This document shows, piece by piece, positions 9,813 through 36,427 of a stretch of DNA of 41,350 nt (its first letter is position 1; each line of letters opens with the position of its first letter). Source of the stretch: a virus. The stretch is from the IMG/VR virus record IMGVR_UViG_3300025305_001987, positions 1 through 41,350 of that record. One strand, given 5' to 3'. The notes beneath the pieces are model-generated. The model had not been told where the DNA came from. It did no database searches and was given only the letters and a program-made list of their open reading frames with translations. Both the position numbers and the translations under genes were made by a program.

Positions 9813-9895
9813 CACTTGCTTTACTAAATACTTGGATGGAGTTGCTGATGTGTATGATGATGAGTATGAAGATTACTAAGGAATATAATATATGA
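9809..9895 (+). CDS. 28-residue tag-only mini-ORF or remnant
   Basis: Starts in an ATGA overlap with the upstream ART and ends in an ATGA overlap with the next gene. It begins MTLALLNTWMEL, a third copy of the shared N-terminal helix, then runs into Met-rich sequence and a stop. After a one-base shift the DNA would instead encode an acidic tail (DVYDDEYEDY) ending at a TAA near 9880. It is either a decayed paralogue of the upstream ART genes or a real tag-only peptide that keeps the translational relay intact. Whether it is expressed is unknown. Confidence 0.45.
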   Translation: MTLALLNTWMELLMCMMMSMKITKEYNI

Positions 9896-18000: not shown

Positions 18001-18646
18001 TGCTCATGAAGTAAGAGAGTATGCAAAAACGCATCAGACTGAAGATACCCCTCTCATTAATGAGCGAGGAGAACCACATGATGATATTTATGACCATCAT
18101 GGATTGGGTGATGAGGAACCAGTAACGTTACAACATATTAAAGATTATATGGAATCTAAGGGAACTTCACCCCCCAATGCGGATTGGGAAGGTGGGGAAG
18201 AATCTCCAGAATCTGACGAAGACGAACCAACAGTTACATCTAACGCTCAAAATTTACTAGACAGAGCTACTGATTCAACAACGGAACTCAAATCTAGTAG
18301 AAAAGAAATTGAAGATAGGCAAAAATCATTAGAACAAGAATTACAGGATGTCGGGGATGATGAGGAATCAAGAAAAGGGATTACTGACCAATTAACTAAT
18401 GTTAAAAACAGGCTAGATAGTATCAATACTAGCATTGCATCACAAACACGAAAGACTGAGATGGCTAATGTACTTTTGAATAAAAAACCATCTCTGAATG
18501 GGGAAGAAAAACCTGCGTCTGAGTCTGATAGTTCCTCAAGCAAAAATCGTAATCGTTTAAAAATGATGAATGAAAAAGGCATGGTTTCTGATGAGGACTA
18601 TCAGGAGATGGTTGATTTGCTTGATATTAAAGACATCAATGGGTAA
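15089..18646 (+). CDS. Tagged zincin metalloprotease with acidic coiled-coil C-terminal region
   Basis: An 1185-aa protein. Order: NWIK/SLQEWLDK tag (1-45), type A module (49-73), zincin metalloprotease with HEIGH at 246-250 and downstream Glu in PEFFAE near 342-347, giving an HExxH plus distal-Glu zinc site like the one in the 1-7412 protein. Then a second helix tag (AMLNEWLDKQ, about 432-441), a W-x5-HRW module and a type A module (about 492-518). The remaining 660 residues are acidic coiled coil with an EET repeat and a C-terminal SHOCT-like helix pair (NRLKMMNEKGMVSDEDYQEM). No transmembrane segment. The protease could act on host proteins after injection or on cargo inside the head; the sequence does not decide. 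ATG at 15089 follows the preceding stop by two bases. Confidence 0.85.
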   Translation: MLDLRDSKNSNWIKNVTQQDEGEDIEKSSPLLSLQEWLDKATSKQDLAMEARRKGLIPQSGDWLKPRKWLVDPKLHALVYDKPDDSKGWDWGAGDTRGKNRGTRGLEESPSSRKRLDEGEFPYSKPSKSERRLREKLVGEIFSEKDMYHGYGSEGWNEEGSLTVSEKKAFLEEVTNTLLKFVPSTHLRAVKSISIKEKLSLPLLASDHDQNALAMFRSGRISIRGTKKWADPKEEDYSQMGQVVLHEIGHAIHYAWSVKFKERLIEEIDILREDPNTDRFDATVRQLEELLFDLTRLGPPKHKMTEFYLGEYHNEFVKEFNRAKRMEAGFTSEYSKTSLPEFFAETYAVYLLSPESLKQRNPAIYKLMNFILSSFDNDAPITQDNVWEHRDLKKHLEEDEQYLTIFDPAGVGDFEEGLPDLPEEEGEEESIAMLNEWLDKQSHNNLRPMNPPSRPPNKGAVWNSHTHRWSKSGEADLGKQTAFGDAGGVSSIAEAKRKGLVPQSGDWDAPDRWVKPKDDVEESDEDKEKGDVEESAEDGDKKAKEMTQPKGAIAQTLKKFNDTVEKILKTVDDLVSGRVDNPKQTFEDIEKLKGQVDEEIEGAKNKIEENGDKVKELTELDKIDAETAERADKELESLRKHYETQEKEINEKWDENYEDLKKKLSLEESGDYEPDDEQPKPEEEETEEEQPVDEEETEETEETEETEETEEDDEDDEEETEEEKQQSRIEGGESQLARSRKALQEHQTEYDESQSTNDTHREALKKNVSAGKALSEERKGLKADYDSGIKNFTMLKKLEDAGTLTDEGQENLHKVRSELTTISNKIKSIDIQGGELKHKSTGLKNQIKDGEQKQKRLDSIMNTHKTHIERATKQITDAGGTPSESEGVEEDDDIFAQARALEAEEDDYDIDADWDEEAAGMPQAQWAAQAQADAENSWAKDTGWGSDVDSEADDFHENFSPEGEQKNSLGLAHEVREYAKTHQTEDTPLINERGEPHDDIYDHHGLGDEEPVTLQHIKDYMESKGTSPPNADWEGGEESPESDEDEPTVTSNAQNLLDRATDSTTELKSSRKEIEDRQKSLEQELQDVGDDEESRKGITDQLTNVKNRLDSINTSIASQTRKTEMANVLLNKKPSLNGEEKPASESDSSSSKNRNRLKMMNEKGMVSDEDYQEMVDLLDIKDING
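15233..15307 (+). repeat. Type A module, copy 6
   Basis: Encodes MEARRKGLIPQSGDW then LKPRKWLVDP, between the SLQEWLDK helix and the metalloprotease domain. The third-position bases differ from other copies, so the peptide rather than the DNA is conserved here. Confidence 0.88.
16376..16510 (+). repeat. LNEWLDKQ helix plus W/HRW module (copy 7)
   Basis: Encodes IAMLNEWLDKQS, then a Pro-rich stretch and KGAVWNSHTHRWSKSG. The W-x5-HRW ending resembles the end of the type A copies (W-x4-RW) and the degenerate copy at 11827, so it is probably a variant of the same structural module. Confidence 0.65.
16562..16642 (+). repeat. Type A module, copy 8
   Basis: Encodes IAEAKRKGLVPQSGDW then DAPDRWVKPKD and leads into the acidic coiled coil. 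The central DNA block is almost identical to the copy at 9940 in a different gene. Confidence 0.9.
17171..17215 (+). repeat. Five tandem copies of a 9-base repeat (gaagaaact)
   Basis: Perfect in-frame tandem repeat giving EET five times within an acidic low-complexity stretch. It is likely to vary in copy number by slippage. It also creates a meaningless overlapping Lys/Leu-rich ORF in another frame. Confidence 0.95.
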
Positions 18647-18654
18647 TAATAATT

Positions 18655-21600
18655 ATGACTAGTATTTTAGAATTAACAGATTGGCTAGATAAACAACGCA
18701 GAGCCTATCATAAACATGATGGATTTCCAGAGCATCCTGTCAGGGTACTTCATCATCAAGAATATTTTGCTGGTGACCACGAAACTCCAGAAAGTAAACC
18801 TCAACCAGCAAAAGATATTTCCTTGTCGAATCTTTCAACATGGAAGGAAAAACCCACTAATTCTTCAGTGGCTTTTGGTGGTGTAATTTTTAATGCTAAT
18901 GGAGAGATTTTATTAAGGAAACCTACTGGTAATTTTGGTGGGTATTCTTGGACATATGCCAAAGGAAGACCAAATGAAAAAGAAACTCCAGAACAGACTG
19001 CCTTACGGGAAGTAGTGGAAGAAACAGGTATTCAAGGTAAAATACTTAGGGAGATTCCCGGTTATTTCACTGGAACTACTACAGATAATAAGTTTTTTAT
19101 TATGGCTGTTGAGAATGATACTGGAGAATATCATTGGGAAACTGAAGAAGTTGGTTGGTTTAGTCCTGATGAAGCACGAGAAAGAATTGGCGAAACTATT
19201 GATGATTTGGGAAGGCAACGTGATTTGGACATTCTTGATTCTCTAGTTTCTACTGAACTAACCTCCCCTAATTGGGATAGCGTATTAGAACGGTCTGGGC
19301 CACAATTAGGCTCTAACCCCGGTGGCATTTTTAGTGACAAGAATACTGGTAAGAGATTTTATTTAAAGTATGGGAATGATGAACAAAATTCTGTAGAGCA
19401 TTTAGCGAATACTCTTTATAGGGAGTTAGGTGTAACTGTCCCTAATATGGAGATTATTGATTTTCAGGGGGATAGGGCATTAAAATCTGAGTGGCTAGAG
19501 GGGGCGAAGGCCGATTCTTCTGGAAAGTCCCACATGGAATCTGATGAGGTACGAGATAATTTTGCTATAGATGCGTGGCTGGCAAATTGGGATGTAGCTG
19601 GGATGGGCCACGATAATATAGTTGAGCATGATGGGAAGATGTATCGAATCGATACAGGTGGCGCACTATATAAGAGAGCAAGAGGGGGAGATAAACAGTC
19701 CTTCTATAACTCTGAAGTTAGTGAAATAGATACTCTACGAGACTCTCAGATGAATCCTTCATCAGCTAGAGTTTTCTCTAGGGTGACTGATGAGGATATT
19801 CGGTACGGGGTTGGTCTTTTAGCTGAAATAGATAACGATAGAATTAATGAACTTGTACAGCAATCTCATCTCCCTGATGAGGAAAAAGATAGGGTTGCTA
19901 ATGCCTTGATAGCCCGAAAGCAAAATTTATTGGCTAGGTTCGGGGTAATACCTATCGATAAGAGTTGGCTAGGTAAGCAAAGAAGGGCATATCATAAACA
20001 TGATGGGTTCCCTGAACATCCTGTTCGGGTAAAACACCACCAAGAATACTTTGCTAGTCATGTGGGAGAGACAAACCAACCTTCTTCTGATGTACCTAAA
20101 CAAGACTTTAGTACTATTTATTCCGATTTAGAAACATTGATTTTAAATACTAGGATGGAAGACCCTTTTAGTATTGAAGAACCTCTTTTTTCACATTATG
20201 CAGAAGATATTCAACGGTACTTGAATAGTTATCCAAGAATGTCTAGAGAGGGACTTCAACTTTTTAAAGAACGTATAAGGATAATATTAGATGAATCTCT
20301 TTCTGATGATGACTTTGTTAGGTTATTACAGAGATTATCAAATAGTCATACTCCAAACCTTGACTTACTTGAAGAGGAATTGAATAGGTATCGTAGTCTT
20401 ATAGTTCCTATGAGTGAGGAGGAAGTAACTGAGTATCTAAATAGTCTTGAATATGATGAAAAAAGAGATGATGGTAAATTAACTGAACGTGATAAAATTC
20501 TTAGAAAATTTGAGTCCTTAAAATATGCAGTAAATTCTATCGCTACACAGGAACAATTTTTCGCTGAAGTTGTTATTGCAACTCGACCTGTTTCATTATT
20601 ACAAGATAACATTGATACATTGATTAATTCTGATAAATGGTTTGTAAAAGATACGGTTCCCTCACTCCTAAGAGTAGACCCTACCGCAGATTTCTTGATG
20701 GATATAGCTAATAATAAAGATGTATCTTTTGAAATACGAACTGAGGCAATTTTATCTCTAGATGCTAAACGTTTTGATGAGTTTATGACAGAAGGTCTTG
20801 GTGACCAATGGATGACTTCTGGAGATGAAAAATCTATTGATGCTATGGGAGAGGGATTTTATGAGTTCTTCTTAACAAGCAGATTTCAAAGTAAGCTGAA
20901 TACAATACGAGTATTACATGAGGCTTTTGGTGGTAGAGAGGTAGTTAATTATTTCATAGATAATTTAGAATTTCCTGAAGATGTAAATTTTAATTTAGAG
21001 GATACCTTTAGTGTACAGAAGGTAAATCCCGGTTTTGCTGCTAGACAGGCTTTTACCTCTTTATATAAACAGACTAAATTTAAATATATTCATGAATCTT
21101 CAATGGAAGATTGGGAAACTTCTAGTTCCTCTGATTGGGGTGGTTTATTAAAAGAATCTGTTGGACGATTAATGGATGGATATACTGTTTATCATCAAGG
21201 TGGGATTCACAAAATACCACTTGTCCAAAATATTAAATTTTCTACCGATAGACGAACTATAATTGAAGATTACAAACCTGATGTGGTTGCACGAAAAGGT
21301 CATACGTTTACTTCAGACCTTTATCCAAATTATACAACTTCTCAAGACTTTTTAGATGAGTATGTTTTAACTCATAAAAAGGCTATTAGAAAAGTTTTGG
21401 ATGCTGTATACAAAGACCAAGACTATATTCCAATTTATCGTGGAACTTCAGGTGGTGCTGAAATTATTGAAATTGAAGGGGAGAGTACTGGCTATGTTCC
21501 ACCATCTCAATATAGGCATCCCGACATAGGTGATGATTGGATTGACGTAGGAATTAATGCAAATCCTTTGAGTAGTTATACTATAAATACTCAAACAGCC

Positions 21601-24600
21601 GCACAATTTGCAGATGACAATAGTGGTTGGCTAATTTCTTCTTTAGTTCACAAAGATGATGTTTGGTCAAATTTTTGGGCGCATTCCTATAATGGAAACG
21701 AAAGAGAATTTTTAATTGTAAATAAAGAACGTGAAACTGTAGGTATACCTGCCAATAAGTGGAAACGTCTTACTTTAGAGAATCGTAGAAGTCCTATATC
21801 AAAAAATTATTCTAGTTTTGGGTTTTTAGGTGAGGAAGATAGTATAGATTTTATTAGTCCTACACAACAGAAGAAAGTAGATAAACTTTTTGCAGATTTA
21901 AAATCTCCTAATATACCCGGTTCAGATACTCCGTGGATTGTTGAGGGTCATCTGACGAATCTTCATAAAGTTTATATTCAATTAAATGACTTTATATCAG
22001 AAGAGAATATGCCTTGGAAAACGGTTTTTGATATTTGGAATGAGGGTTTAGAAGACGCTGGGTGGAAAAAGAATCCAGATATGGAAAATAATGAACATAT
22101 TAAAAGGCGAGTTGCTGTTCTTACACAAAAACTTAAGAGAAGTGCTGGTATATATCAGGTCAAAAAAGATAACGTACAGAAATCAGAGTGGCTAGGTAAA
22201 CAACGCAGAGCATATCATAAACATGATGGATTTCCTGAACATCCGGTTAGGGTAAAACATCATCAAGAGTATTTTGCGAGTCATGTGGGAGAGCCAAACC
22301 AAGTTTCTGATGATGTACCTAAACAAGACATATCAGATATTCATTCTGATATAACTACTTTATTGATTGATTTTTTCCACGAAAAGGAAAAATTGGGGGC
22401 AATACCTTACGGAGACTCAAAATATATAGAGAATTGGATAGAGGGAGACTTCAGGTCGTTAACAGAGAACGACTATATTAGTGAAAAGTATCTTGGTACT
22501 GTAGCAGATAAGTTAGATGAACTATTTTCTGATGAAGATTTTGTTCAATTATTACAAGGTTTAGAGAACTCACATTCTCCAGAGCGTGAGTCTCTTGAAG
22601 TAGAACGAGATAAACTTAGAGAGATTTTAGATAAACATAGTCGAGACTTTCAAGACCCTGAAATTCGTCAACGTCATGATGATATTGTAAATAGGATTAG
22701 AGATATATCGGAACAAGAACATTTTATTAAGGATGTTGTCCTTGGCACTCGCCCTATACCATTATTGATGGATAATATTGATACTCTGGTCAATTCTGAT
22801 AAATGGTATATGCAAGAAATAGCTTCTGACCTTATGAATGTTGACCCAACCGCAGACTTTTTAATGGACATATTTAATAATGAATCTATAAATTTTGATA
22901 TACGTACTGAAGCACTTCTGGCTTTAGATGCTAAACGTTTTGATGAGGTTATGAGTGAACGTTATGGTAGAGATTGGAAAGATATAGACGATTGGTCTGA
23001 AGATATGCAGTTTATTGATTATCTTAGGATGTTTAATCAAAAGCATAATGAATTGAAACGGTTACACAATGCTTTTGGTAGGGATGCGGTTAATCATTTC
23101 ATAGAGCATTTAGAGTTCCCAGATGATGTGCAGTTTGATTTAGAAGACACTTTTAATGTTATGAAGAAAGACCCCGGTAAGAAAGCTAGAGATTTATTCA
23201 TTGAGTTGTATAGGAATACTAAGTTTGGGCATCTTCATGAAACTTCAATGGAACAATGGGAAGCATCCAGTTCTTCTGATTGGGGTGGATTATTAAAGGA
23301 ATCTATTGGAAGACAATTGGATGGAGATATTGTTCATCATAGTGGCCTTAATATATCTCGACTTCAAGAGATGTATTTTCCATCTAGACCACAACGACTA
23401 ATTGATTTTGTTGGTTGGGTTAGTCCTGATAGTGGCCCTAATATATATGGAGATATTGTTCATCATGATGATGCAGACTCTAGCAAATATATAACTTCTC
23501 AAGAACTTCTAGATAAATATGTTCTTACTCATAAAAAAGCTATTCGTAAAATTTTAGACTCTGTATATAAAGACCAAGACTATATTCCTGTTTATCGTGG
23601 TACTGGTATAGGGGGAGAGGTTGAGGAAACAACGGAACTAAAAGATTTCAAACTGGATGAGTGGAATCCTATAGCGGTTACGGCAAATCCCCTAAGTAGT
23701 TATTCTTTAGATGCTAGTGTTGCTCATAAATTTGCTAGAAGAGAGAGTGGTTGGATTATTTCTTCTCTGGTTCATAAAGATGATGTCTGGTCAAATTTTT
23801 GGGCGCATTCCTATGCTGGAAATGAAAGAGAATTCCTTCTTATCAATAAAGAACGTGAGTCTATGGGTATACTGGCTGGCACTTGGACGGAAGTTGGAAA
23901 GCGTATAAGTCCATTAACATCTGATTATAATAATTATGGGTTTCAAGAAATAGGACATAATCAATATTTCCTTGATGATGAGCAAAAAAATACTGTATTG
24001 GATGCATCTTTAAATATAAAATCTACCTATAATCTTGATACACCACAGGTTAAATTATCAGTTAATGAACATATTGATAATTTGAGTGAGATGTCCTCTT
24101 ATTTGGAAGAGTGGATGAATGATAATGGTATGCCAGCTTCTATGGCTTTAGAGATTTGGAATGATGCTATAAAAGATGCTGGATGGAAAAAGAATTCTGA
24201 GTTACAAAATGACCCAGAATTTCTTTCTTTGCCTAACTATATGAAAGATTTAACAGAAGCCCTTGAAAAGAAAGCTGCTAAAGAGATAAGTTCTTCAAAA
24301 GAATCACAAACAATACCTGAAGCTAATGCTTCTCAGAAGATAGAGGGTAAAGATTATTCGATAAAGGACGCAATTGATGATTTTCTTATAGCTGATATTC
24401 CCGGTGCTAAAGAGAATTCTCTTAACCCTAATTGGTATGCAGAAAATTTTGTTGATGAATATGACTTTGCTAAAAAATGGACTGATAAACTTATAGAAGA
24501 CGGAGAAATGTTCCTATATACTTCAGAAGAACAACAAAAAACAGGTTTGGTAGATGAAGATGGTAACCCAATTATGGGAACTATAGAAGACCAACTTAAT

Positions 24601-27600
24601 GAACATGTTGATGCAACTGTAGAAAGCTATGGAAAACCTATTTGGGCTTGGGTTCAACAGAATCTTACTAATGAAGAGTGGGCGAAGGCAGATAAAATAC
24701 TAGAGGGTTTAGAAAAATCTCAATTGATTTCTAAACAAGCTAGTACTGCTTCCACCGCTCGTACTATGCTAGTGCCATATAGAACTATGGTTCATAGACC
24801 TGCTAAGACTCCATATTTTGCGACTCGATGGAAAAGAGTAACTGTTCCTCAACGTACTGGAACAGCATATAATGTTATTCCTGTTGGGGAATATAAAGGT
24901 AATATTCAAGATATTTATTCGTCATGGAAAGGTTATGTTGGTGATAGGGAGGAAGGTAGGCACGATTTATATCTCCCTATAATTGCGTTGCAAGAAATCA
25001 TCTATAAGGGGTTTGATGGACTTTTAGCTACATTTAATAATCGAATTGTTGGGGTTGTTAGTTTATCCATTAATCAGGTCAAAGAAGCCCGTTTATCTAT
25101 TTTATCAGCTTCACCATTCGATATTATTCAGGGAACCGAAAACAGAATCGAAGATATGCTCCGTCGTGGAGTAGAGATTTATGTTAAGAATAAGGGTTGG
25201 GACTATATAGGGATTGATGGAGATGCTGGAGATGATGGAGAAGATATTGACCTTGAGAAAGCCCGTGGGCAATTGATTCCTGTGAAAGTTCCGATAACTC
25301 TTCCAAGCGGTAAGAAAACTGAAGCAATACGTTGGAAGAAAGGTAAATCAGACCCGAAAGCGTTTGCAGACTTTGATGATGTATTTGAAGCCTTGGGAGA
25401 TAATCCCAAGATGAAGACTTACTTGGAGTCAGTGGTCAATAAAATACCAGCTACATGGAACCGTAATACTCTTGAACTTGATATGTCTTCTGACTCTAAT
25501 GTTATTGCAAGAGCTATAAATTCTTTTGGGAAATGGAGTTATATTCGGTCTACCGAAAAAGATGGTGAGATAGAAAAGGCCAAACATAGTAAAGTTGAGA
25601 AGTTTTCTAAGGCCATTACTCAAATACGGAAAGGTATTGCACGAGGATTAAAGAAAGGTGATGAAGAAGCTATTATTCTGCACTTGATTGATGTTGCTGG
25701 ATTGCGAATTGGAGATGAACCAGATAGTGGTGAGGCAGATGACCATACTCAACCTAAAGATGAGGATGGTAAGTTTAAACGAGTTCCTACATATGCAGCA
25801 AGGCAACTACTAGGGAAACATGTCTCTGTTGATGGGGATAAAGTTAGGTTGCAATATCCAGCTAAAGATAATGTACCCCTTGATAAGACAATTGATAATG
25901 CTGTATTAGCTAAATTCTTTTCTAATAAGAAAAAGAAAGCGGGGGATGACGATAAATTATTTGAATCCAGTGCTTCAAAAGTTCGTGGTTATTTCAAAAA
26001 ATTAAGTGGGGGAAATGATTTCCACGTTCATTTCTTTAGACACTATCATGCTACTAGATTAATTATTGATAGGTTAAAAGATTATCCGATGCCTACTGTT
26101 GATAGTGAGGAGATTTCTAAAGCAATTCGTCGTGCAGAAATTAAACAATTTAAATCGGGTGGTAGGAAGAAATTATCTCAATCTGGTAGAAAGGTAATTG
26201 TTGCAGATTATGTAGCGAAACAATTTCGAAAGCACCAGTTGGAGGTAGCTAAAACTTCTGCTGAATTTTTGATTCATACTCCTGAAGTTTCTATCAAAGA
26301 TTATATTATGCCAGCCGTTTGGTCTGAGTGGGACAAAGAGCAAGGGAAAATTGTACGAGAGCATTTGAGTAATCCAGAGCCAGAGCCGAAGAAGGTTCGG
26401 ACGATTAAACGAACACCTGTTACGAAACAAGATGATTACAATCCCGATGAGTATCAACCGTGGGAAGACATAGACGATTTCTTTGAGCGCACTATGTATG
26501 ATGAAGGGAGTATTATTGACGATGATTCTGATATATTTCCCGAAGATAAAGAAGAACGAGAGGCACAAGAAAAAGAGGACTTAGAATCTGATGAGGGTTG
26601 GCAATATCCGATTGAATTATCTAAATCAACTGCATCCATAACAGAAGCCAAACGCCGTGGTCTTATACCGCAGTCTGGTGACTGGCTGAAACCTAAACGG
26701 TGGGTAAAACCTAAAGATGCTGATGCTCCAGTAGAAGAAAAGACTGAACTTATTAAACTTCCTGAAGACACTTGGAAGTATTTTAATAAAGTACCAAATA
26801 CTATTCTAGTAGATGTTTCTAAGTTAAGCCCTTCAAAAGATATAAATGACCAAATTAATCGTAAACCTATTGAGAATGCAAATAGGTTTATGGAATTAGC
26901 ATATCGTGGGGAAAATGATAAACGTAATCCTATTGATTTAAAGGACAATGGGGATGGTACATATACTATTCTAGATGGTAACTCTACCTATGCCAATGCT
27001 GTAGATAGCGAATGGAAGAAACTTCCCGGCGTAGTTGTGGAGAAACCTAGAAAGAAAGCAACTATAAGGTCATCGAAAAGGATGACAGTAATTGATGGAG
27101 ATGTTGAAGAAACTTTAAAAGATATCTTTCATGAAGACTTTAAACCTAGTGATTTTCAAGATATGTATTCTACTGGATTAGAGGAGTTTTCAACTGAAAT
27201 TATAGCTATACGTACTCATACTACTCCAAACCCTAGAAATACTCGTAAGGGAATTTCAATACATATTGCCATACATCTGAAGGAGCGTAAGGATGGGCCT
27301 CTCAAAGAAGTTGGAAAGATGTTTAGAACTTTTAGTAAGAATGATAAGGGAAGAATTATTGCTACCCATCAGTCATTTGTATTAAATCCTATTGCTCAAA
27401 ATCAAGGCGTAGCTTCTGATTTGCTTGAAAATGTTGAGGAAGAGTACAAAAAGCATGGTGTTTGGGGTATTGGTTTAACTGCTAATGCGGATATTGGTGG
27501 GTATGCATGGGCTAGACAAGGCTATGATTTTACGAATGATAAGGATAGAGAGAATATAAGGAATCATTTTAAAAAATTTGTTACTACGATGCTCAAGAAT

Positions 27601-27837
27601 GGGAAGATTTGGAATAAAGACATAACACCATTTTTAGAAGCTATAGATTCTTTTGAGCATTCTTGGGAATTTGCTTCATGGAATCCTTTAAATGAACCAC
27701 ATGGAAAACATCTTGGTAAGACAATAATGTTGGGACGTTCATGGGGTGCTGGTAAAAGACTTCATATGGACTCTCAGGGTTATCAAAGAGGGAAAATATA
27801 CTTTGCCTTGAAGAGAAAACATAATGAACAAGGATAA
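18655..27837 (+). CDS. 3060-aa polyvalent protein: Nudix, kinase-like, two ART units, GNAT, topoisomerase IB, ParB-like, GNAT
   Basis: Order by residue: helix tag and type B module (1-39); Nudix hydrolase 70-180 with a full Nudix box at 104-126 (G.....E.......REVVEETGI); HipA/PI3K-like kinase fold about 200-425 (YLKYGND, NWDVAGMGHDN, RIDTGGAL); type B module 437-472; helical unit with ART (Arg929, SSY 973-975, ExE 1016-1018); type B module 1178-1213; a second such unit (Arg1648, SSY near 1681, ExE 1724-1726); GNAT-like about 2070-2185; topoisomerase IB about 2225-2560 with Arg2351 (LRIGDE), Lys2404, Arg2462 (FRHYH) and candidate nucleophile Tyr2550 (KDYIMP); type A module 2662-2688; ParB-like 2706-2796 (LDGNSTYANA); GNAT-like 2806-3060 (QNQGVASDLL). 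It overlaps the MuF gene by 14 bases. Nudix, ART and TopIB are strong calls; GNAT1, ParB and the kinase are moderate. Confidence 0.9.
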   Translation: MTSILELTDWLDKQRRAYHKHDGFPEHPVRVLHHQEYFAGDHETPESKPQPAKDISLSNLSTWKEKPTNSSVAFGGVIFNANGEILLRKPTGNFGGYSWTYAKGRPNEKETPEQTALREVVEETGIQGKILREIPGYFTGTTTDNKFFIMAVENDTGEYHWETEEVGWFSPDEARERIGETIDDLGRQRDLDILDSLVSTELTSPNWDSVLERSGPQLGSNPGGIFSDKNTGKRFYLKYGNDEQNSVEHLANTLYRELGVTVPNMEIIDFQGDRALKSEWLEGAKADSSGKSHMESDEVRDNFAIDAWLANWDVAGMGHDNIVEHDGKMYRIDTGGALYKRARGGDKQSFYNSEVSEIDTLRDSQMNPSSARVFSRVTDEDIRYGVGLLAEIDNDRINELVQQSHLPDEEKDRVANALIARKQNLLARFGVIPIDKSWLGKQRRAYHKHDGFPEHPVRVKHHQEYFASHVGETNQPSSDVPKQDFSTIYSDLETLILNTRMEDPFSIEEPLFSHYAEDIQRYLNSYPRMSREGLQLFKERIRIILDESLSDDDFVRLLQRLSNSHTPNLDLLEEELNRYRSLIVPMSEEEVTEYLNSLEYDEKRDDGKLTERDKILRKFESLKYAVNSIATQEQFFAEVVIATRPVSLLQDNIDTLINSDKWFVKDTVPSLLRVDPTADFLMDIANNKDVSFEIRTEAILSLDAKRFDEFMTEGLGDQWMTSGDEKSIDAMGEGFYEFFLTSRFQSKLNTIRVLHEAFGGREVVNYFIDNLEFPEDVNFNLEDTFSVQKVNPGFAARQAFTSLYKQTKFKYIHESSMEDWETSSSSDWGGLLKESVGRLMDGYTVYHQGGIHKIPLVQNIKFSTDRRTIIEDYKPDVVARKGHTFTSDLYPNYTTSQDFLDEYVLTHKKAIRKVLDAVYKDQDYIPIYRGTSGGAEIIEIEGESTGYVPPSQYRHPDIGDDWIDVGINANPLSSYTINTQTAAQFADDNSGWLISSLVHKDDVWSNFWAHSYNGNEREFLIVNKERETVGIPANKWKRLTLENRRSPISKNYSSFGFLGEEDSIDFISPTQQKKVDKLFADLKSPNIPGSDTPWIVEGHLTNLHKVYIQLNDFISEENMPWKTVFDIWNEGLEDAGWKKNPDMENNEHIKRRVAVLTQKLKRSAGIYQVKKDNVQKSEWLGKQRRAYHKHDGFPEHPVRVKHHQEYFASHVGEPNQVSDDVPKQDISDIHSDITTLLIDFFHEKEKLGAIPYGDSKYIENWIEGDFRSLTENDYISEKYLGTVADKLDELFSDEDFVQLLQGLENSHSPERESLEVERDKLREILDKHSRDFQDPEIRQRHDDIVNRIRDISEQEHFIKDVVLGTRPIPLLMDNIDTLVNSDKWYMQEIASDLMNVDPTADFLMDIFNNESINFDIRTEALLALDAKRFDEVMSERYGRDWKDIDDWSEDMQFIDYLRMFNQKHNELKRLHNAFGRDAVNHFIEHLEFPDDVQFDLEDTFNVMKKDPGKKARDLFIELYRNTKFGHLHETSMEQWEASSSSDWGGLLKESIGRQLDGDIVHHSGLNISRLQEMYFPSRPQRLIDFVGWVSPDSGPNIYGDIVHHDDADSSKYITSQELLDKYVLTHKKAIRKILDSVYKDQDYIPVYRGTGIGGEVEETTELKDFKLDEWNPIAVTANPLSSYSLDASVAHKFARRESGWIISSLVHKDDVWSNFWAHSYAGNEREFLLINKERESMGILAGTWTEVGKRISPLTSDYNNYGFQEIGHNQYFLDDEQKNTVLDASLNIKSTYNLDTPQVKLSVNEHIDNLSEMSSYLEEWMNDNGMPASMALEIWNDAIKDAGWKKNSELQNDPEFLSLPNYMKDLTEALEKKAAKEISSSKESQTIPEANASQKIEGKDYSIKDAIDDFLIADIPGAKENSLNPNWYAENFVDEYDFAKKWTDKLIEDGEMFLYTSEEQQKTGLVDEDGNPIMGTIEDQLNEHVDATVESYGKPIWAWVQQNLTNEEWAKADKILEGLEKSQLISKQASTASTARTMLVPYRTMVHRPAKTPYFATRWKRVTVPQRTGTAYNVIPVGEYKGNIQDIYSSWKGYVGDREEGRHDLYLPIIALQEIIYKGFDGLLATFNNRIVGVVSLSINQVKEARLSILSASPFDIIQGTENRIEDMLRRGVEIYVKNKGWDYIGIDGDAGDDGEDIDLEKARGQLIPVKVPITLPSGKKTEAIRWKKGKSDPKAFADFDDVFEALGDNPKMKTYLESVVNKIPATWNRNTLELDMSSDSNVIARAINSFGKWSYIRSTEKDGEIEKAKHSKVEKFSKAITQIRKGIARGLKKGDEEAIILHLIDVAGLRIGDEPDSGEADDHTQPKDEDGKFKRVPTYAARQLLGKHVSVDGDKVRLQYPAKDNVPLDKTIDNAVLAKFFSNKKKKAGDDDKLFESSASKVRGYFKKLSGGNDFHVHFFRHYHATRLIIDRLKDYPMPTVDSEEISKAIRRAEIKQFKSGGRKKLSQSGRKVIVADYVAKQFRKHQLEVAKTSAEFLIHTPEVSIKDYIMPAVWSEWDKEQGKIVREHLSNPEPEPKKVRTIKRTPVTKQDDYNPDEYQPWEDIDDFFERTMYDEGSIIDDDSDIFPEDKEEREAQEKEDLESDEGWQYPIELSKSTASITEAKRRGLIPQSGDWLKPKRWVKPKDADAPVEEKTELIKLPEDTWKYFNKVPNTILVDVSKLSPSKDINDQINRKPIENANRFMELAYRGENDKRNPIDLKDNGDGTYTILDGNSTYANAVDSEWKKLPGVVVEKPRKKATIRSSKRMTVIDGDVEETLKDIFHEDFKPSDFQDMYSTGLEEFSTEIIAIRTHTTPNPRNTRKGISIHIAIHLKERKDGPLKEVGKMFRTFSKNDKGRIIATHQSFVLNPIAQNQGVASDLLENVEEEYKKHGVWGIGLTANADIGGYAWARQGYDFTNDKDRENIRNHFKKFVTTMLKNGKIWNKDITPFLEAIDSFEHSWEFASWNPLNEPHGKHLGKTIMLGRSWGAGKRLHMDSQGYQRGKIYFALKRKHNEQG
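18679..18771 (+). repeat. Type B module, copy 1
   Basis: Encodes DWLDKQRRAYHKHDGFPEHP then VRVLHHQEYFA at the N terminus of the 3060-aa protein. The leading WLDKQ is the end of the shared helix tag fused to a His-rich motif. Confidence 0.9.
19963..20070 (+). repeat. Type B module, copy 2
   Basis: Encodes SWLGKQRRAYHKHDGFPEHP then VRVKHHQEYFASHVGE and opens the first ART unit. It is almost identical to copy 3 at the peptide level, with many synonymous differences. Confidence 0.9.
22186..22293 (+). repeat. Type B module, copy 3
   Basis: Encodes EWLGKQRRAYHKHDGFPEHP then VRVKHHQEYFASHVGEPNQ and opens the second ART unit. Confidence 0.9.
26638..26718 (+). repeat. Type A module, copy 9
   Basis: Encodes ITEAKRRGLIPQSGDW then LKPKRWVKPKD, between topoisomerase IB and the ParB-like domain. 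Its central DNA block is shared with the copies at 771 and 10717. Confidence 0.9.
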
Positions 27838-28906
27838 AGAAGAAATTGGGGAAAATGCTGACTATCTATTTCCTGAAATAGACAATTTAGATTTTGAAGC
27901 TGACCTTGATAAAGCATTTGAGGAAATAGAGGCTTTACATCGTGATAAGAATGGTGATGAATCTTTAGAAAAATCCACCGTTCCGCTTCAACTTGGATTT
28001 CCACCGATACCAGATATAGCTACTCTTGAATATTATGATTGGGTTGATGAGGTCATCTCTAAAGCAGGGCTTGTGTTTGGGGGAAATCAACCACCGGGAA
28101 CAAAAACTATTGGACGTTCTGCTGAGTTGCGTTTATACAGCACTCTTCAGGATGCTGTTCAGTCATTTTTAGAAACACTTGATGGAACAGAGCATCAGCA
28201 AGAAGTTGTGGATGCGGTTCGGGAAGTAATTTCTCGATGGGCTGATGTAAATATTCCTCTGATGAACAGGACGTTTGAAGAACTATTTAAGCGTGGTCTG
28301 GAAGCTGGCTTGGTAGCGGTTGGTCAGAGGCTTGATGTGGGTGACCAGAAAGTACTGGAACTTCTCAGAGAGTCTGAATTAAAAATGGGTAGTAGGATAG
28401 TTCTATTTTCTGAGGATGTAGCGAATCAATATGAGAAGGTAATTCATAGAAATTTTGAACCAACTGAAGTATTTAATCTTCCAGCATTGGTGCGTCAGAT
28501 GGGTGATGTGGCCCCGGCTAGACGATTTGAGTTAGAGCGAATAGCGAGAACTGAAGTTGGTCAAACTAGCGGTATAGGTAGATTTTGGGGATGGGCTAAA
28601 AATCCAGAGGATTTATATTATTTCCAATACTATTGGAACTCTACTCCTGATACCCGGCGCAGAAAGATGAAAGAAATTAGACAAGCGTGGAATCCTTTGA
28701 CTTGGGATGAGGCGTGGTTTTTGTGGAGTCATAACAAACAGATGGTAGATGGGAAATGGCAGGTTGGAAATATTAATTGTCGATGTACGGTTGCTCGTAG
28801 TCCTTCTGAGAGTGGGGAGGAATTTAGGGGGAATAGATTTATTGGTAGAGAAGATATGTTTGAGCGAACACTTGATGTAATAATGCCTTGGGAAGAAGAA
28901 GCGTAA
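27824..28906 (+). CDS. MuF/SPP1 gp7-like head morphogenesis protein
   Basis: A 360-aa protein. The C-terminal half carries the Phage_Mu_F pattern: ERIARTEVGQTSG near residue 240, a Trp/Arg-rich middle (RRRKMKEIRQAWNP) and a terminal NCRC near 317-321. The N terminus is acidic and overlaps the end of the polyvalent gene. In known phages MuF-family proteins bind the portal or enter the procapsid in few copies and are often fused to toxins; here the effector genes sit just upstream as separate ORFs. That adjacency supports a head-packaging role for the upstream proteins. No toxin domain is fused to this copy, and no type A or B module is present. Confidence 0.85.
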   Translation: MNKDKEEIGENADYLFPEIDNLDFEADLDKAFEEIEALHRDKNGDESLEKSTVPLQLGFPPIPDIATLEYYDWVDEVISKAGLVFGGNQPPGTKTIGRSAELRLYSTLQDAVQSFLETLDGTEHQQEVVDAVREVISRWADVNIPLMNRTFEELFKRGLEAGLVAVGQRLDVGDQKVLELLRESELKMGSRIVLFSEDVANQYEKVIHRNFEPTEVFNLPALVRQMGDVAPARRFELERIARTEVGQTSGIGRFWGWAKNPEDLYYFQYYWNSTPDTRRRKMKEIRQAWNPLTWDEAWFLWSHNKQMVDGKWQVGNINCRCTVARSPSESGEEFRGNRFIGREDMFERTLDVIMPWEEEA

Positions 28907-29899
28907 ATGCTTTTCCAAGAATTTGCTTGCAATGGTTTATGGGTAGCTTCTTCTAATGGAGATTATAATGATAGGGTTTGGATTAGGGATTCTGTATTCA
29001 TTATCCTCACTCATATGGAGATGGGTGAGACACAAATAGTGCAAGATGCTTTGAATACCATAGGGGATTTATGGGATGTATCTTCTGAAAATAATGATTA
29101 TGCTAGACCAGCCGTGTGTTATTCTTGTGATTTAAAATCTGTAAGTGTTCCAAATTATCTTACTGGGGAATCAGCAGACATACAAAATGATACATTAGGA
29201 GAGGTTTTATGGATTTATTGTGAGGCGTATGAAAGGGGGTATGCTTTTACGCCGAATTGGGATAGAGTCATAGCAAATATTCTCGCTACTCTTTTCAAGG
29301 AGCGATATTGGGAGCAATCAGATTCTGGTTTTTGGGAGATGGAGACAGCATTACGAGCATCTAGTGTAGGAATATGTGTCGCTGGTCTGAGAAGATTGCT
29401 ATCCATAGATTCTAGGGAATGGAGTTCTAGTTGGGATGCTGAGAAAGTTAGAACTTTATTGGAAAAGGGTTATGAAACTTTATACAAATTATTGCCGAAT
29501 GAAACATCTAATAGAGCATATGATTCATCCTTATTGTATCTTATTTGGCCCTTTACTGTTGTGGATGGGGTTATGGCTCTACAAATTATTGGCAGGGTAT
29601 TAGGGAATTTAAGAGGTTGGGTAGGTTTTAGGAGATTTGTAAATGACCCGTATTATTTACAGGGGGGAGAAGTTGCTGAGTGGGGAATGACTTCCCCCCA
29701 TATGTTACTCTGTATGAATCAGATTGGTCTATACCCTGTTGAGGAAGACCCAAAGGATTGGCGAACTATTAAATTATTGGAAGAGAAAAATTACCCTGAA
29801 AGTTTTGTTGGTGTAGAGAAAGAACCAAATGTGAATACCCCATTAGCGTGGACAAAAGCAATGTGTTTATTAGCTAAATTGAAGTTGAGTCCAAATTGA
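28907..29899 (+). CDS. GH15/phosphorylase-kinase-alpha-like (alpha/alpha)6-barrel protein
   Basis: A 330-aa protein starting directly after the MuF stop codon. Several stretches follow the GH15 glucoamylase/phosphorylase b kinase alpha family: RVWIRDSVF (23-31), QNDTLGEVLW (93-102), GFWEMETALRASSVG (141-155), SSLLYLIWPF around 206-215, GFRRFVNDPYY, and a C-terminal E...EKEPNVNTPLAW (298-315). Glu144 and the Glu cluster 298-306 sit where this family has its acid/base carboxylates. It lacks a signal peptide and extra domains and is shorter than bacterial glucoamylases. A virion-associated glycan hydrolase or an inactive structural barrel are both possible. The match was made by eye. Confidence 0.65.
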   Translation: MLFQEFACNGLWVASSNGDYNDRVWIRDSVFIILTHMEMGETQIVQDALNTIGDLWDVSSENNDYARPAVCYSCDLKSVSVPNYLTGESADIQNDTLGEVLWIYCEAYERGYAFTPNWDRVIANILATLFKERYWEQSDSGFWEMETALRASSVGICVAGLRRLLSIDSREWSSSWDAEKVRTLLEKGYETLYKLLPNETSNRAYDSSLLYLIWPFTVVDGVMALQIIGRVLGNLRGWVGFRRFVNDPYYLQGGEVAEWGMTSPHMLLCMNQIGLYPVEEDPKDWRTIKLLEEKNYPESFVGVEKEPNVNTPLAWTKAMCLLAKLKLSPN

Positions 29900-29910
29900 T
29901 TTGTTTTATT

Positions 29911-29925
29911 AGTATTACAAATACT
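29911..29925 (+). promoter_or_regulatory. Palindrome, probable operator of the XRE regulator
   Basis: Perfect inverted repeat with 6-base arms (agtatt/aatact) around a 3-base centre. It covers the -35 zone of the promoter whose -10 is at 29936, immediately before the XRE gene, so autorepression is likely. Confidence 0.55.
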
Positions 29926-29941
29926 ATTTATATGATATAAT
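29913..29941 (+). promoter_or_regulatory. Extended -10 sigma70-type promoter
   Basis: Consensus TATAAT at 29936-29941 preceded by TG one base upstream (TGaTATAAT). The -35 region is poor (tattac at 17-base spacing), as is typical of extended -10 promoters. It would drive the XRE gene and the abutting gp10-like gene. Confidence 0.65.
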
Positions 29942-29964
29942 GCAAGTTATATTTGGATTGTTAT

Positions 29965-30240
29965 ATGTATAATGCAAGAGTTGTGGTTGGTAAGACAATC
30001 TCAGATGCTAGAAAAACTAGAAATTTGAATCAGTGGCAACTAGCAAAATTGTTGGGTGTCACACAGCCATATATATCTAGTTTAGAAAATGGAAAGGGAA
30101 ATATCACGATTGACCAAGTATCAGATATTTTGGAATTGTTGGATTTTAGGATTGATATACAGTTGAAACCATTTAGGTTGACCGATGAAGAATCTCAAAA
30201 GTTGGATAAAGTTAATCAATTATTGCTAGGAACTTTGTAG
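29965..30240 (+). CDS. XRE/HipB-type helix-turn-helix regulator
   Basis: A 91-aa protein. The HTH region is clear: VGKTISDARKTRNLNQWQLA then LLGVTQPYISSLENG, the usual Cro/C1-type pattern with recognition helix TQPYISSLE. A TTG 12 bases upstream is in frame, but the ATG at 29965 fits the length of small HipB/HigA-type proteins. No toxin partner is adjacent: the flanking genes are the GH15-like protein and an HK97 gp10-like protein, so a plain phage regulator is more likely than an antitoxin. The stop codon abuts the next ATG. The palindrome upstream suggests autoregulation. Confidence 0.85.
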   Translation: MYNARVVVGKTISDARKTRNLNQWQLAKLLGVTQPYISSLENGKGNITIDQVSDILELLDFRIDIQLKPFRLTDEESQKLDKVNQLLLGTL

Positions 30241-31117: not shown

Positions 31118-33277
31118 ATGTCAAATCCATATTTTTTTCTTAAAACCTATCGTAATATTGTCAAAAAGATTTCCAATCAAGATGAGATAGGAAAACTTTA
31201 TTATGATTTAATGTTTCGTTTGCCAGAGAAACATTATCTTCAGAAATGGTTTGATGATACTAGACCCAATTTAGTAAAACAATCTATAGCTATTGACGCT
31301 GTTGCCAATGAAATTCATCAAAATGGTGATTCTACATTGCAAGAGATTTATCCCGGCGCACAATGGAGTATTTTTAAAGAAAATTTAGACACTCTTTCAG
31401 GGCTTGAGAAAGAGAGTGATGTTAGAAAGGCAAATCGTGGGTACTATTCTCCCATAGTCAATGAATCTAAATTTGTGTTTTTGCGTAAAGCCGTTAATAT
31501 TGAGGATATTCCTCAAGTTGGGCGAACAACTAAAGACGATATATCAGAGGCGATTGCAACATATGAAAAACTTGATAAGGTCGATTTAACTTCTCCAGCC
31601 GAATTGCTTACATTGGCTCGATATTATGGGGAGGATAGTACATACTATCGAAAAGCCGAAATTAAAGGTTTATTTGATGCTGAAGAAGACCCACTTGTGG
31701 TTGGTGGGCCAGCTTCTGTTGAAATGGTAGATTCTGAAGGTCATTTAATTACCAGTGAGGCACTATCTGAGGCATTCTCTCGATTTATGGAAAATATTAG
31801 GCTTCAAAACATTCAATTATTTCACTCTGATGTGCAAATTGGTTGGCCTTTAAAAGCGTATATCTCTCCGAATGGAGAAGTTTTTAAATCCGGTGTTGAT
31901 GATAAGGGATTATGGCTTATCTCTGAATTGAGAGATGATATTAGCATTGCGAAACGAACTGCTGATGAAATCCATAAGGGTAACATTCAATCTTATTCAA
32001 TAGCTGGAAATGCTACGGACACCAAACAAGTCACTAAGGGTGTCCAAACTTTTATGCAAGTCGATAAGATGGATTTGGTTGAAGTTACTCTGTGTGAAAA
32101 AGGGGTAAATCAGGGAGCATTTTTCAATATTTTGAAGAGTGAAAATGCAGCAACCAAATCTTGTGCAGATGGAAGTTGTATTCCTGTCTTTAAAGAAAAT
32201 TTGCCTTCACATACCCGAATTGATACACATGAATGGGGCGCATTAATTACTGATGATAAAAGCAGAGTTATTATCTGTGCTGATAGGTCAAATTCGATAA
32301 CAGATGCTTTATCGCTAGAGCTACGAAAATTTGTTAGCGATGAAATACCTATAGTTGTCGAACCCGGCCCGTATTTCAATTGTGTGCCTTTATTGAAGGC
32401 TGATTTTACTACTGTTGAGAAACAAGGACTGAATCTCCAAGATATTAATACATCTATTTTAGAAGATGTTTCAGACCATATTGAAGCGATTTCTGAGGAT
32501 GAGTTATCTACTACTGAGCAACTAGATTGTTACGGATACCATACTCAGAATTTTGATATATGTCCGAAGTCTGTTGAAGCATTTTCTAAATTATGCCAGT
32601 ATGAAGATATGGAAATACAAGAGAAGGTCATTGAGGCCGTAAAGCTCACTGATTCCTTCTTAGGATTAGAAAAAGAGGTCATAGAATTAGAGAATTCTAC
32701 TGAAGACGATATTGAGAATATGTCTAAAATGATTAGCGATTCTCACTATCTTATAGGTGAGATTAGTGTCTTAATAGAGAAAGATTTAGAGGATGAGTTT
32801 GATTACAGTATAAACCACTTTATGAACGTCTTAGATAAATTCAATGCGTCTGATATAGACTCCTCTGAGGATAATTTGATTTTACTGGAGGAATCTAATT
32901 ATCGACCATCAGAAAAAGAAGCGGCTGAATGTCATACCTGTGAATTTTTTGCTGATGGTGGATGGTGTACAAAACTTCACATGATTGTAGACCCCGAATA
33001 TGTGTGTGATTATTTTAATGCCATGCCGGGTGCGTCTGAAGCCGAAGAGTGGGCCGAAGTTTCCCGACAGGGCTACGAGTTAGAGGAATTGTTTACTAAA
33101 AAAGGAGATATTATGGAAACATCGCTGGGACATCTAAATGAATGGCTGGAAAAATCTGATGATGATGATTGGGACGTTTCTGACAATGAAAAGGAACGTC
33201 AAGACATTATGAAACAATTTTATACAGACATTCTTATGATGGTTGATGAGGATGGCAATCCTGTGGATGAGAAATAA
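31118..33277 (+). CDS. XkdF-like prohead protease fused to an acidic scaffold-like region
   Basis: A 719-aa protein. The protease core lies about 225-345: FHSDVQIG with His236, GLWLISELRDD, and IQSYSIAG with Ser294 (or Ser292) as likely nucleophile, then MDLVEVTLCEKGVNQGA. This matches the XkdF-type phage serine protease fold related to herpesvirus assemblins. The N-terminal 220 residues include another beta-rich region. The C-terminal half is acidic with an ECHTCEFF...GGWC...VCDYF cluster (Cys605, 608, 617, 630), like a small Fe-S or zinc site, and ends with HLNEWLEK near 672-679, the same helix tag as the cargo proteins. It probably directs procapsid maturation; the tag suggests shared sorting. 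Only ATG 31118 works: TGA precedes it directly. Confidence 0.82.
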   Translation: MSNPYFFLKTYRNIVKKISNQDEIGKLYYDLMFRLPEKHYLQKWFDDTRPNLVKQSIAIDAVANEIHQNGDSTLQEIYPGAQWSIFKENLDTLSGLEKESDVRKANRGYYSPIVNESKFVFLRKAVNIEDIPQVGRTTKDDISEAIATYEKLDKVDLTSPAELLTLARYYGEDSTYYRKAEIKGLFDAEEDPLVVGGPASVEMVDSEGHLITSEALSEAFSRFMENIRLQNIQLFHSDVQIGWPLKAYISPNGEVFKSGVDDKGLWLISELRDDISIAKRTADEIHKGNIQSYSIAGNATDTKQVTKGVQTFMQVDKMDLVEVTLCEKGVNQGAFFNILKSENAATKSCADGSCIPVFKENLPSHTRIDTHEWGALITDDKSRVIICADRSNSITDALSLELRKFVSDEIPIVVEPGPYFNCVPLLKADFTTVEKQGLNLQDINTSILEDVSDHIEAISEDELSTTEQLDCYGYHTQNFDICPKSVEAFSKLCQYEDMEIQEKVIEAVKLTDSFLGLEKEVIELENSTEDDIENMSKMISDSHYLIGEISVLIEKDLEDEFDYSINHFMNVLDKFNASDIDSSEDNLILLEESNYRPSEKEAAECHTCEFFADGGWCTKLHMIVDPEYVCDYFNAMPGASEAEEWAEVSRQGYELEELFTKKGDIMETSLGHLNEWLEKSDDDDWDVSDNEKERQDIMKQFYTDILMMVDEDGNPVDEK
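33125..33166 (+). repeat. LNEWLxK helix tag within the protease protein
   Basis: Encodes SLGHLNEWLEKSDD near the protease C terminus, followed by an acidic tail. The same short helix begins or ends cargo proteins at 7627, 8835, 9809, 9892, 15041 and 16376. Confidence 0.75.
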
Positions 33278-34462: not shown

Positions 34463-36427
34463 ATGACCATTACTTCTACCGGAATCATCGACCTTTCCAA
34501 GTGGAGAGTCCTTCATGATGCTGTAAGCGCACTCGCTGGAGTATGTGATTACGCTAGTACCACTGATGGTACAGGGTTCAATGGTGTTGACGCTGGTTTT
34601 GGTCACTCACTGGCTGACAAGCCGTTTGACCGTTGGACTCCTAAAATGGTCAAGGCCACCTACAAAATGGTTCGGAAATATAAGGGCCAACTGGCTGGAT
34701 TTGGAATCGATTTTGCTTCCATTCCCACCCCCGATTTCACTGATGGTGAGATTGAGGTTCACAAGACTGCCAGAATTTCTGTTGGTCGGAAGACTGCGGT
34801 TCGGACGGTGGTAATAGATGGTGGTGATTTCATCTTGCGGTTCCCGTATGACCCGGCGGTGGTTGTGGCGGTCAAGACCATTCCCGGTGCAAGGTGGAAT
34901 CCATCTGACAAATTCTGGTATTTTGACAAGACTCGCAAGGATTCAATTCTTAGATTTATTGAGGTTGCAAGGGAATTTCCCTTTGAGGCAACCGATGCGG
35001 TTCGGGATGCTTCCAAGTCTGCTCTTTCAGTAAAGGCAGTAAAAAAAGCTGATTCCCCATCTTTGAATGAATATGGGGTAGGTTTGGATTTGTACCCCTT
35101 TCAGAAAATTGGGGCAAAATGGTTGGTTGAGAAAGAGAAGGCCATGCTAGGGTGGGACATGGGAACCGGGAAAACTCCTACTTCCCTAGTGGCGATTCAT
35201 TCTGCTGATGCGTATCCAGCATTGATAGTGACCACCGCTTCCATGAAATACACTTGGGCCGAAGAAATTGAGAAGTGGTTGCCAAACAAGACTTTCAAGG
35301 TTTTGAATGGTGGCAAGGCACTTGGAAAATACGGTGACACTGATTTCACCATTATAAACTATGATATTCTGACCAAACACCTTGCCCCAATTGAACACGC
35401 TGGTTTCAAAGGTGCAATTCTTGATGAGTCTCACAAAATCAAGACTCGTAATGCGAAGCGCACATCTAGCTCACTAAAGATTGTTAGAGAGATTCCCTAC
35501 GTGTTCTTACTGTCAGGAACCCCGGTCATGAACAAGCCTGTTGAGTTGGTAACTCAGCTACAGGCCATGAATGGAATCAAGCATTTCGGTGGAATCAAAA
35601 AATTCATCGGTAGGTACTGTGACCCGAAAGTTTCCCGGTGGGGAACTGATTATAGCGGTGCGAGTAACCTAGAGGAATTACACGCTAAACTGACCTCTAC
35701 GGTTTACAACCGTATTACTAAAGCAGAGGCTCTACCTGATTTGCCAGACCGCACGATTTCAGTGGTTCCAAGCAATATCGATAACCGTCCTGAGTACAAT
35801 CGAATTGAGGCAAATTTGATTGAGTGGCTGTTGGAGAATAAAGGAATGGCGAGTGCAGAACGTGCTTCTCGTGCAGAACATCTAGTACGCATCAACGTTC
35901 TGAAAGACGCATGTGTTCGGGGAAAGATGAACAACATCAAACTTTGGATTGCAGATTTCCTAGAGTCTGATGAAAAATTGGTGGTGTTCTCCGATAGCAG
36001 GGCTGTTCAGAATATGCTGATTGAAGAATATCCTGATGCGCTTACGATTCTAGGTTCGGATAATGCTCAGAAGAAAAATGAGGCTAAGAACAAATTCCAG
36101 AATGACCCGAATGAAAAGCTGGTCATATGCTCTCTCAAGGGGGCATCGGAAGGATTAACTCTAACGGCTGGTTCAAATGCCTTGTTTGTAGACTTGGGTT
36201 GGAATCCTGCCACGCATGACCAAGCAGAGTCTCGACTCCATCGGAACACTCAGAAGAATGCGGTCAACTGCTACTACATTCTTGGAAAGAACACCATCGA
36301 CAATTTCATCTGGAGTTTGATTGAGAAAAAGCGGAAAGTCGTGGGTGCTATACTTGATGGAAAAGAGGGTGATTTGGATGTGAACATGCTTGACGATGTA
36401 ATCGATTACTTGACCAGCAAGAATTAA
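34463..36427 (+). CDS. SNF2-family helicase with HARP-like N-terminal region
   Basis: A 654-aa protein. Around residues 130-170 it has FPYDPAVVVAVKTIPGARW then a KFWYF strand, the pattern of the HARP domain found in SMARCAL1 and phage relatives. The helicase begins LYPFQKIGAKWL; Walker A DMGTGKT (K237), DESH box 321-324, SGTP motif III, and motif VI QAESRLHR near 588-596. Such proteins anneal or remodel DNA at forks. Base composition is clearly different from the neighbours: more G/C at third positions, fewer AT-rich codons. Alone behind a near-consensus promoter, it is likely expressed early. Start ATG has AGAGAGGG upstream. It could be a recent acquisition. Confidence 0.88.
   Translation: MTITSTGIIDLSKWRVLHDAVSALAGVCDYASTTDGTGFNGVDAGFGHSLADKPFDRWTPKMVKATYKMVRKYKGQLAGFGIDFASIPTPDFTDGEIEVHKTARISVGRKTAVRTVVIDGGDFILRFPYDPAVVVAVKTIPGARWNPSDKFWYFDKTRKDSILRFIEVAREFPFEATDAVRDASKSALSVKAVKKADSPSLNEYGVGLDLYPFQKIGAKWLVEKEKAMLGWDMGTGKTPTSLVAIHSADAYPALIVTTASMKYTWAEEIEKWLPNKTFKVLNGGKALGKYGDTDFTIINYDILTKHLAPIEHAGFKGAILDESHKIKTRNAKRTSSSLKIVREIPYVFLLSGTPVMNKPVELVTQLQAMNGIKHFGGIKKFIGRYCDPKVSRWGTDYSGASNLEELHAKLTSTVYNRITKAEALPDLPDRTISVVPSNIDNRPEYNRIEANLIEWLLENKGMASAERASRAEHLVRINVLKDACVRGKMNNIKLWIADFLESDEKLVVFSDSRAVQNMLIEEYPDALTILGSDNAQKKNEAKNKFQNDPNEKLVICSLKGASEGLTLTAGSNALFVDLGWNPATHDQAESRLHRNTQKNAVNCYYILGKNTIDNFIWSLIEKKRKVVGAILDGKEGDLDVNMLDDVIDYLTSKN

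Follow-up and report, generated by a model that had tools for sequence, protein, structure and literature searches.

The window analyzed here is a 41-kb linear virus record (41,350 nucleotides in full). On its plus strand, at 28907..29899, lies a GH15 (glucoamylase/phosphorylase kinase-like) gene encoding a single-domain protein of 330 aa, an assignment based on the Pfam family PF00723, an independent profile, and an AlphaFold2 model that Foldseek matches to the structure 5z3c. The reading frame has 330 codons with no internal stop, and its ATG directly abuts the TAA of the upstream gene, which is read in the same frame. We set aside a read-through fusion with this gene via the TAA, since one in three neighbors share a frame by chance and the ATG follows immediately.

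The upstream gene (27824..28906, plus strand) is Mu-F/head-morphogenesis-like, with weak family matches only (E 0.02-0.09, below all cut-offs), and its protein is 82% identical in a sister phage (contig L006). On the other side, a promoter-like element with an extended -10-like sequence (TGATATAAT; 29910..29945, plus strand) is followed by a helix-turn-helix regulator gene (HTH_3, PF01381, E 3.3e-12; 29953..30240, plus strand) and, further downstream, by genes for neck/tail completion (phrog_5, E 2.7e-7) and for a prohead protease (PF04586, E 1.2e-6). With these genes on either side, the description ‘among head genes’ in the initial annotation is a fair one. The prohead protease (31118-33277) is 719 aa long with a long C-terminal extension; among phages, it is most similar to proteins of haloarchaeal tailed viruses (~31% identity in the protease part), followed by Streptomyces phages. 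In a host-assignment search, the Mu-F-like gene had no match and the protease found remote kin only.

The GH15 gene is present in contigs L001, L002, and L003 and absent between the same flanks in the sister phage L006. Two metagenome contigs besides the window, nearly identical to it, encode a 100% identical GH15 protein, and L003, which comes from another sample, contains the 3' end of the gene followed by the downstream genes seen in the window. In L006, the regulator gene directly follows the upstream gene with a 62-bp spacer, and no trace of GH15 was found in the whole 32-kb contig. The promoter-like element is common to this empty site (91.7% match to L006 9049-9084) and marks the right border of the GH15 insertion. 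The gene is thus an optional one that is nonetheless conserved in the phages that carry it, and the pattern may reflect a gain by the window lineage or a loss by L006. GH15 homologues occur in cellular genomes and the protein has no PHROG match, which makes it a homologue of a cellular metabolic gene and of no core phage gene. The sister phage without the gene at this site agrees with the initial annotation, which knew of no standard morphogenesis role for such a protein. Over the 82 C-terminal codons that can be compared between the window and L003, which include the codon for Glu298 (see below), protein identity is 91% and synonymous sites are near saturation. The dN/dS of this part is 0.029, compared with 0.17 for the neck gene; the high dS makes the ratio rough, but its direction is clear. 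The C-terminal quarter of the protein is under strong purifying selection.

The GC content of the GH15 gene (0.381, third-position GC 0.296) is like that of its neighbors, so composition is no mark of recent arrival. An SNF2-type helicase gene at 34463-36427 has a GC content of 0.454 (third-position GC 0.466), well above the other measured genes (0.33-0.41), which points to another origin or constraint for this gene. The window also encodes several large proteins. One is a 3060-aa open reading frame (18655-27837) with a NUDIX domain (PF00293, E 1.6e-14), a eukaryote-type topoisomerase I core (PF01028, E 2.5e-11), and probably further modules, and it resembles the ‘polyvalent proteins’ of phages and conjugative elements (PMC5512222). 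The proteins encoded at 84-7412 and 15089-18646 each contain an HExxH metallopeptidase-like stretch (HELAH and HEIGH); their matches to Peptidase_M90 and related models of zinc peptidases are weak and fall below the cut-offs. The 84-7412 protein also contains an SNF2/helicase C-terminal part. A short repeat, A.(R/K)RKGL(I/V)PQSGDW.(K/R)P.RW(I/V)(R/K)P, runs across the large proteins (window 84-7412, 9892-14856, 15089-18646, and 18655-27837; L006 6962-7993) and often immediately precedes a new module. The motif KQRRAYHKHDGFPEHPVRV.HHQEYFA likewise recurs inside the 3060-aa protein. Such repeats are perhaps linker, processing or packaging tags.

In a Pfam search, the 330-aa protein matched one family, GH15 (PF00723), over residues 9-154 (E 2.3e-8), with 33.8 bits against a curated cut-off of 22 bits, and the same match is present in the annotation of the virus record. 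Searches of PHROGs and NCBIfam with the protein returned no match, and neither did a phmmer search of the PDB with its C-terminal 85 residues; by sequence, its top PDB hit is the beta subunit of phosphorylase kinase (PhK; E 3.6e-6). An independent GH15 profile, built from 31 other bacterial and archaeal GH15 proteins with the window protein left out, aligned to residues 19-236 with an E-value of 9e-16; against the same profile, 1000 shuffles of the window protein reached 0.84 at best. The segments that had been lined up with the GH15/PhK alpha family in the initial annotation (W25-I-R27-D28-S, Q93-NDTLGE, F142-W-E144, R150-ASSVG, and N310-TPLAW) were all found, in that order, and we confirm the observation of a GH15 gene at 28907-29899.

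The protein was modeled with AlphaFold2 on alignment A4 (32 rows; the E. coli protein L010, described below, was left out), which gave a model of moderate confidence (mean pLDDT 61.5, pTM 0.69). The model consists of 12 helices (residues 2-9, 26-38, 42-61, 94-109, 117-131, 151-166, 178-198, 207-219, 221-235, 264-274, 285-293, and 314-327), the count required by an (alpha/alpha)6 barrel, with a short first helix. The best solved match found by Foldseek is 5z3c (TM 0.63 on the query, probability 1.00, E 1.8e-3), the E178A mutant of the single-domain GH15 isomaltose glucohydrolase of Kribbella flavida (KfGH15; 5z3a-5z3f, 7c24-7c27). Less significant matches include further glycosidases with an (alpha/alpha)6 fold, such as GH125 mannosidases, amid chance helical matches. 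The phage protein and KfGH15 share 18% identity in the fold alignment. Among viral models (BFVD), a single GH15-like fold match was found, a Megaviridae glucan 1,4-alpha-glucosidase (A0A5J6VJQ0, TM 0.54); its E-value is only 0.019 and, unlike the window, it belongs to a giant virus of eukaryotes. The predicted fold is toroid-like, in line with the check proposed in the initial annotation, and has a GH15 enzyme as its best solved match.

GH15 enzymes have their general acid in the loop between helices 5 and 6 and their general base in the loop between helices 11 and 12 (PMC12446779). In the model, the predicted acid Glu144 (codon 29336..29338, plus strand; DSGFWE) is located between helices 117-131 and 151-166, and the predicted base Glu298 (codon 29798..29800, plus strand; YPESF) between helices 285-293 and 314-327; both loops have a pLDDT below 50. 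Both columns are invariant in A4 as well as in A6, which aligns the phage protein with its nearest relatives, and Glu298 is located in a segment conserved in L003. Glu144 is aligned with Glu178 of KfGH15, which is mutated to Ala in 5z3c. The codons for W25-I26-R27-D28 (28979..28990, plus strand) correspond to the GH15 glucose-binding motif (subsite -1), and Asp28 is equivalent by alignment to Asp56 of KfGH15, the role of which is described in PMC12446779. Trp25, Arg27, Asp28, and Arg243 are likewise invariant in A4 and A6, and across the phage protein and its nearest relatives (A6) the whole set of GH15 glucose-binding residues is invariant. The base assignment rests on A4, A6, and the common pattern P-E-(S/A/L)-(F/Y) ... 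L-(A)-W. Alignments A1-A3 and A7 put the tail elsewhere, so that E278/E279 or a gap falls in the base column; in A1, E298 is paired as well, although its partners differ. These alignments were rejected, because A4, A5, and A6 together with the closest-relative alignment agree on a single set of columns for PE(S/A/L)(F/Y) and L(A)W. Because A2, A3, and A7 place the tail differently, Glu298 is less certain than Glu144. By these alignments, the acidic pair expected in the initial annotation is found as Glu144/Glu298 in conserved GH15 columns and loops.

The residue following the predicted base is Ser299, where canonical inverting enzymes, including KfGH15, have Gln (PMC12446779). Dextran dextrinase, a retaining transglucosidase, has a Ser after its base (PMC12446779), so the inverting stereochemistry of the phage protein is only putative.

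A scan of genome contigs with the single GH15 protein as query returned no relative, and the same scan with A2 returned 35 distant GH15s with 22-30% identity over the matched part. These are mostly from Actinomycetota, with some from haloarchaea, and most are full-length proteins of about 600-700 aa in which the N-terminal part is long. Closer kin were found in whole-genome searches, phylum by phylum, as single-domain proteins of 415-435 aa from Chloroflexota (L098, L099) and a second phylum (L095-L097), with an alignment-dependent identity of 25-36%. They share with the phage protein the one GH15 domain, identical catalytic and glucose-binding columns, and the motifs SSVG-AG(L/I), D..-L(I/V).P, (F/V)xRY/F, PE(S/A/L)(F/Y), and (P)L(A)W, but they are cellular. 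In a maximum-likelihood tree, the phage protein groups with five single-domain GH15s (support 100/100), although it sits on a long branch and its exact position in the clade is unsure. It is 85-105 residues shorter than these kin, with a short first helix, no insert before residue 251, and a short stretch near helix 11. We found no named family for the nearest single-domain PhK-like GH15s. In both Chloroflexota genomes, the kin gene adjoins a GH13 amylase gene and is near a trehalose-phosphate synthase gene. In the second phylum (L095 3117-6464, L096 3241-6212, and L097 3447-6581), it is flanked by genes for a YegS-like lipid kinase and a cation-efflux transporter, an arrangement conserved in the three genomes that has no obvious link to sugar metabolism. 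We should note that these neighbor families were tested in one genome per type and assigned by sequence likeness in the remainder.

The PhK kinship proposed initially was borne out by these relatives. The N-terminal D1 domains of PhK alpha and beta also have the GH15 fold, and the alpha subunit retains Glu185 and Glu371. Both subunits have more than 1000 aa and reside in a 1.3-MDa kinase, whereas the phage protein, with 330 aa and one domain, is like the D1 domain only and is no PhK subunit. A further PhK-like GH15 is the E. coli glucoamylase-like protein (EC042-3075-like; L010), with 24% identity and similar LPES and PLxW tail motifs, but it has 550 aa and an apparent N-terminal export signal; its gene sits at the ETT2 cluster and others have tentatively proposed the product as an ETT2 effector. 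Judged by sequence, the phage gene is best described as a shortened copy from the PhK-like single-domain clade, in a setting that is rare for the well-known GH15 family.

Cellular organisms commonly have GH15; GH15 genes in phages are almost unknown. Against 50,697 phage records (INPHARED), tblastn with the phage protein gave no match up to an E-value of 10, two GH15s of the PhK-like clade gave no match either, and an ordinary GH15 gave one match, a 4.1-kb fecal fragment. Three protein scans and two DNA-pattern scans of IMG/VR returned only this lineage, with patterns so selective that the absence of other viral GH15s is not implied. The IMG/VR pattern TPLAW(S/T)(K/H)A gave 31 new loci, of which one (L053) encodes GH15 and is the L003 contig again. 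One paper lists a GH15 gene among viral genes from mangrove soil (PMC6460857).

We consider it fairly probable that the gene is accessory to the phage (a moron or auxiliary metabolic gene) and encodes a shortened single-domain GH15 of the PhK-like clade, made with the head genes and probably working as an inverting alpha-glucosidase on host alpha-glucan. The terminal glucose would be held by Trp25, Arg27, Asp28, and Arg243, Glu144 would protonate the glycosidic oxygen, and Glu298 would activate water, by which glucose would be freed from an alpha-glucan (glycogen, maltodextrin or a related oligosaccharide). As the gene starts right behind a head gene and inspection of the protein revealed no evident signal peptide, its production probably falls late in infection and within the host cell. 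We infer catalysis, substrate, timing, and benefit to the phage from family and fold, the catalytic columns and loops, the glucose-binding residues, the clade (with the kin genes of two Chloroflexota genomes beside a GH13 amylase gene), the optional presence of the gene, and the selection on it. Counted against an enzyme are the inactivity of PhK alpha, the shortening by 85-105 residues, Ser299, and a moderate model with a pLDDT below 50 at both glutamates. PhK alpha keeps both glutamates in an apparently intact site with no detectable glucoamylase activity (PMC10978961), and because of this precedent we only infer GH15 activity for the phage protein. The action on host glycogen or glycans put forward in the initial annotation is putative; the structural barrel that it named as the alternative, or any other non-catalytic role, is less likely.

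The main rival, which we hold to be unlikely, is a non-catalytic GH15 barrel as in PhK, which would bind a glucan or a protein partner as a scaffold, regulator or anti-defense part without cutting. The phage copy is shortened and its nearest clade is PhK-like, and we know of no tested enzyme in that clade, all in keeping with such a barrel and with the PhK alpha precedent. It fits poorly with the retention of both glutamates and the glucose-binding residues, and with the strong purifying selection on the base region. It is rather doubtful, too, that the protein is a transglucosidase of the retaining type or acts on another alpha-glucoside (trehalose, isomaltose or an alpha-glucosylated cell-surface or nucleic-acid sugar) instead of being a glycogen/maltodextrin hydrolase. 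Ser299, the isomaltose enzyme as top fold match, the Chloroflexota kin near trehalose-phosphate synthase, and the occurrence of trehalases in GH15 (PMC12446779) point in this direction. Against retention, Ala314 in PLAW is, if the alignment holds, the residue conserved by inverting enzymes, although sequence alone does not tell inverting from retaining GH15 members, as PMC12446779 warns.

We see little probability in a use other than feeding, in which a minimal barrel of the PhK-like GH15 type, made late or packaged with the head, would strip or sense host alpha-glucosyl groups (in glycogen-based signaling, glucosylated DNA or a glucosylated defense component). Highly improbable is a protein carried in the virion, as a glycan-cutting enzyme or as cargo, that would be packaged along with the head or tail and act when the phage enters its host. 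The gene is inside the head-gene block, directly behind the Mu-F-like gene, in a genome rich in large multidomain proteins of a kind described as polyvalent cargo. However, the sister phage makes its head without GH15, the protein has no signal, tail-binding or fused domain, and exo-acting single-domain GH15s are poor depolymerases. A decaying or chance reading frame, suggested by a product shorter than its kin, is contradicted by a frame open in three contigs, by the low dN/dS in the comparable part, and by the profile match against shuffles, and its probability is negligible.

For the accessory alpha-glucosidase that we favor, the strong selection under which this lineage keeps GH15 suggests that a phage can profit from access to the storage glucan of its host while it infects. 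The phage protein is also a small single-domain PhK-like GH15 in which catalysis may be tested for a clade whose animal members have no detectable activity.
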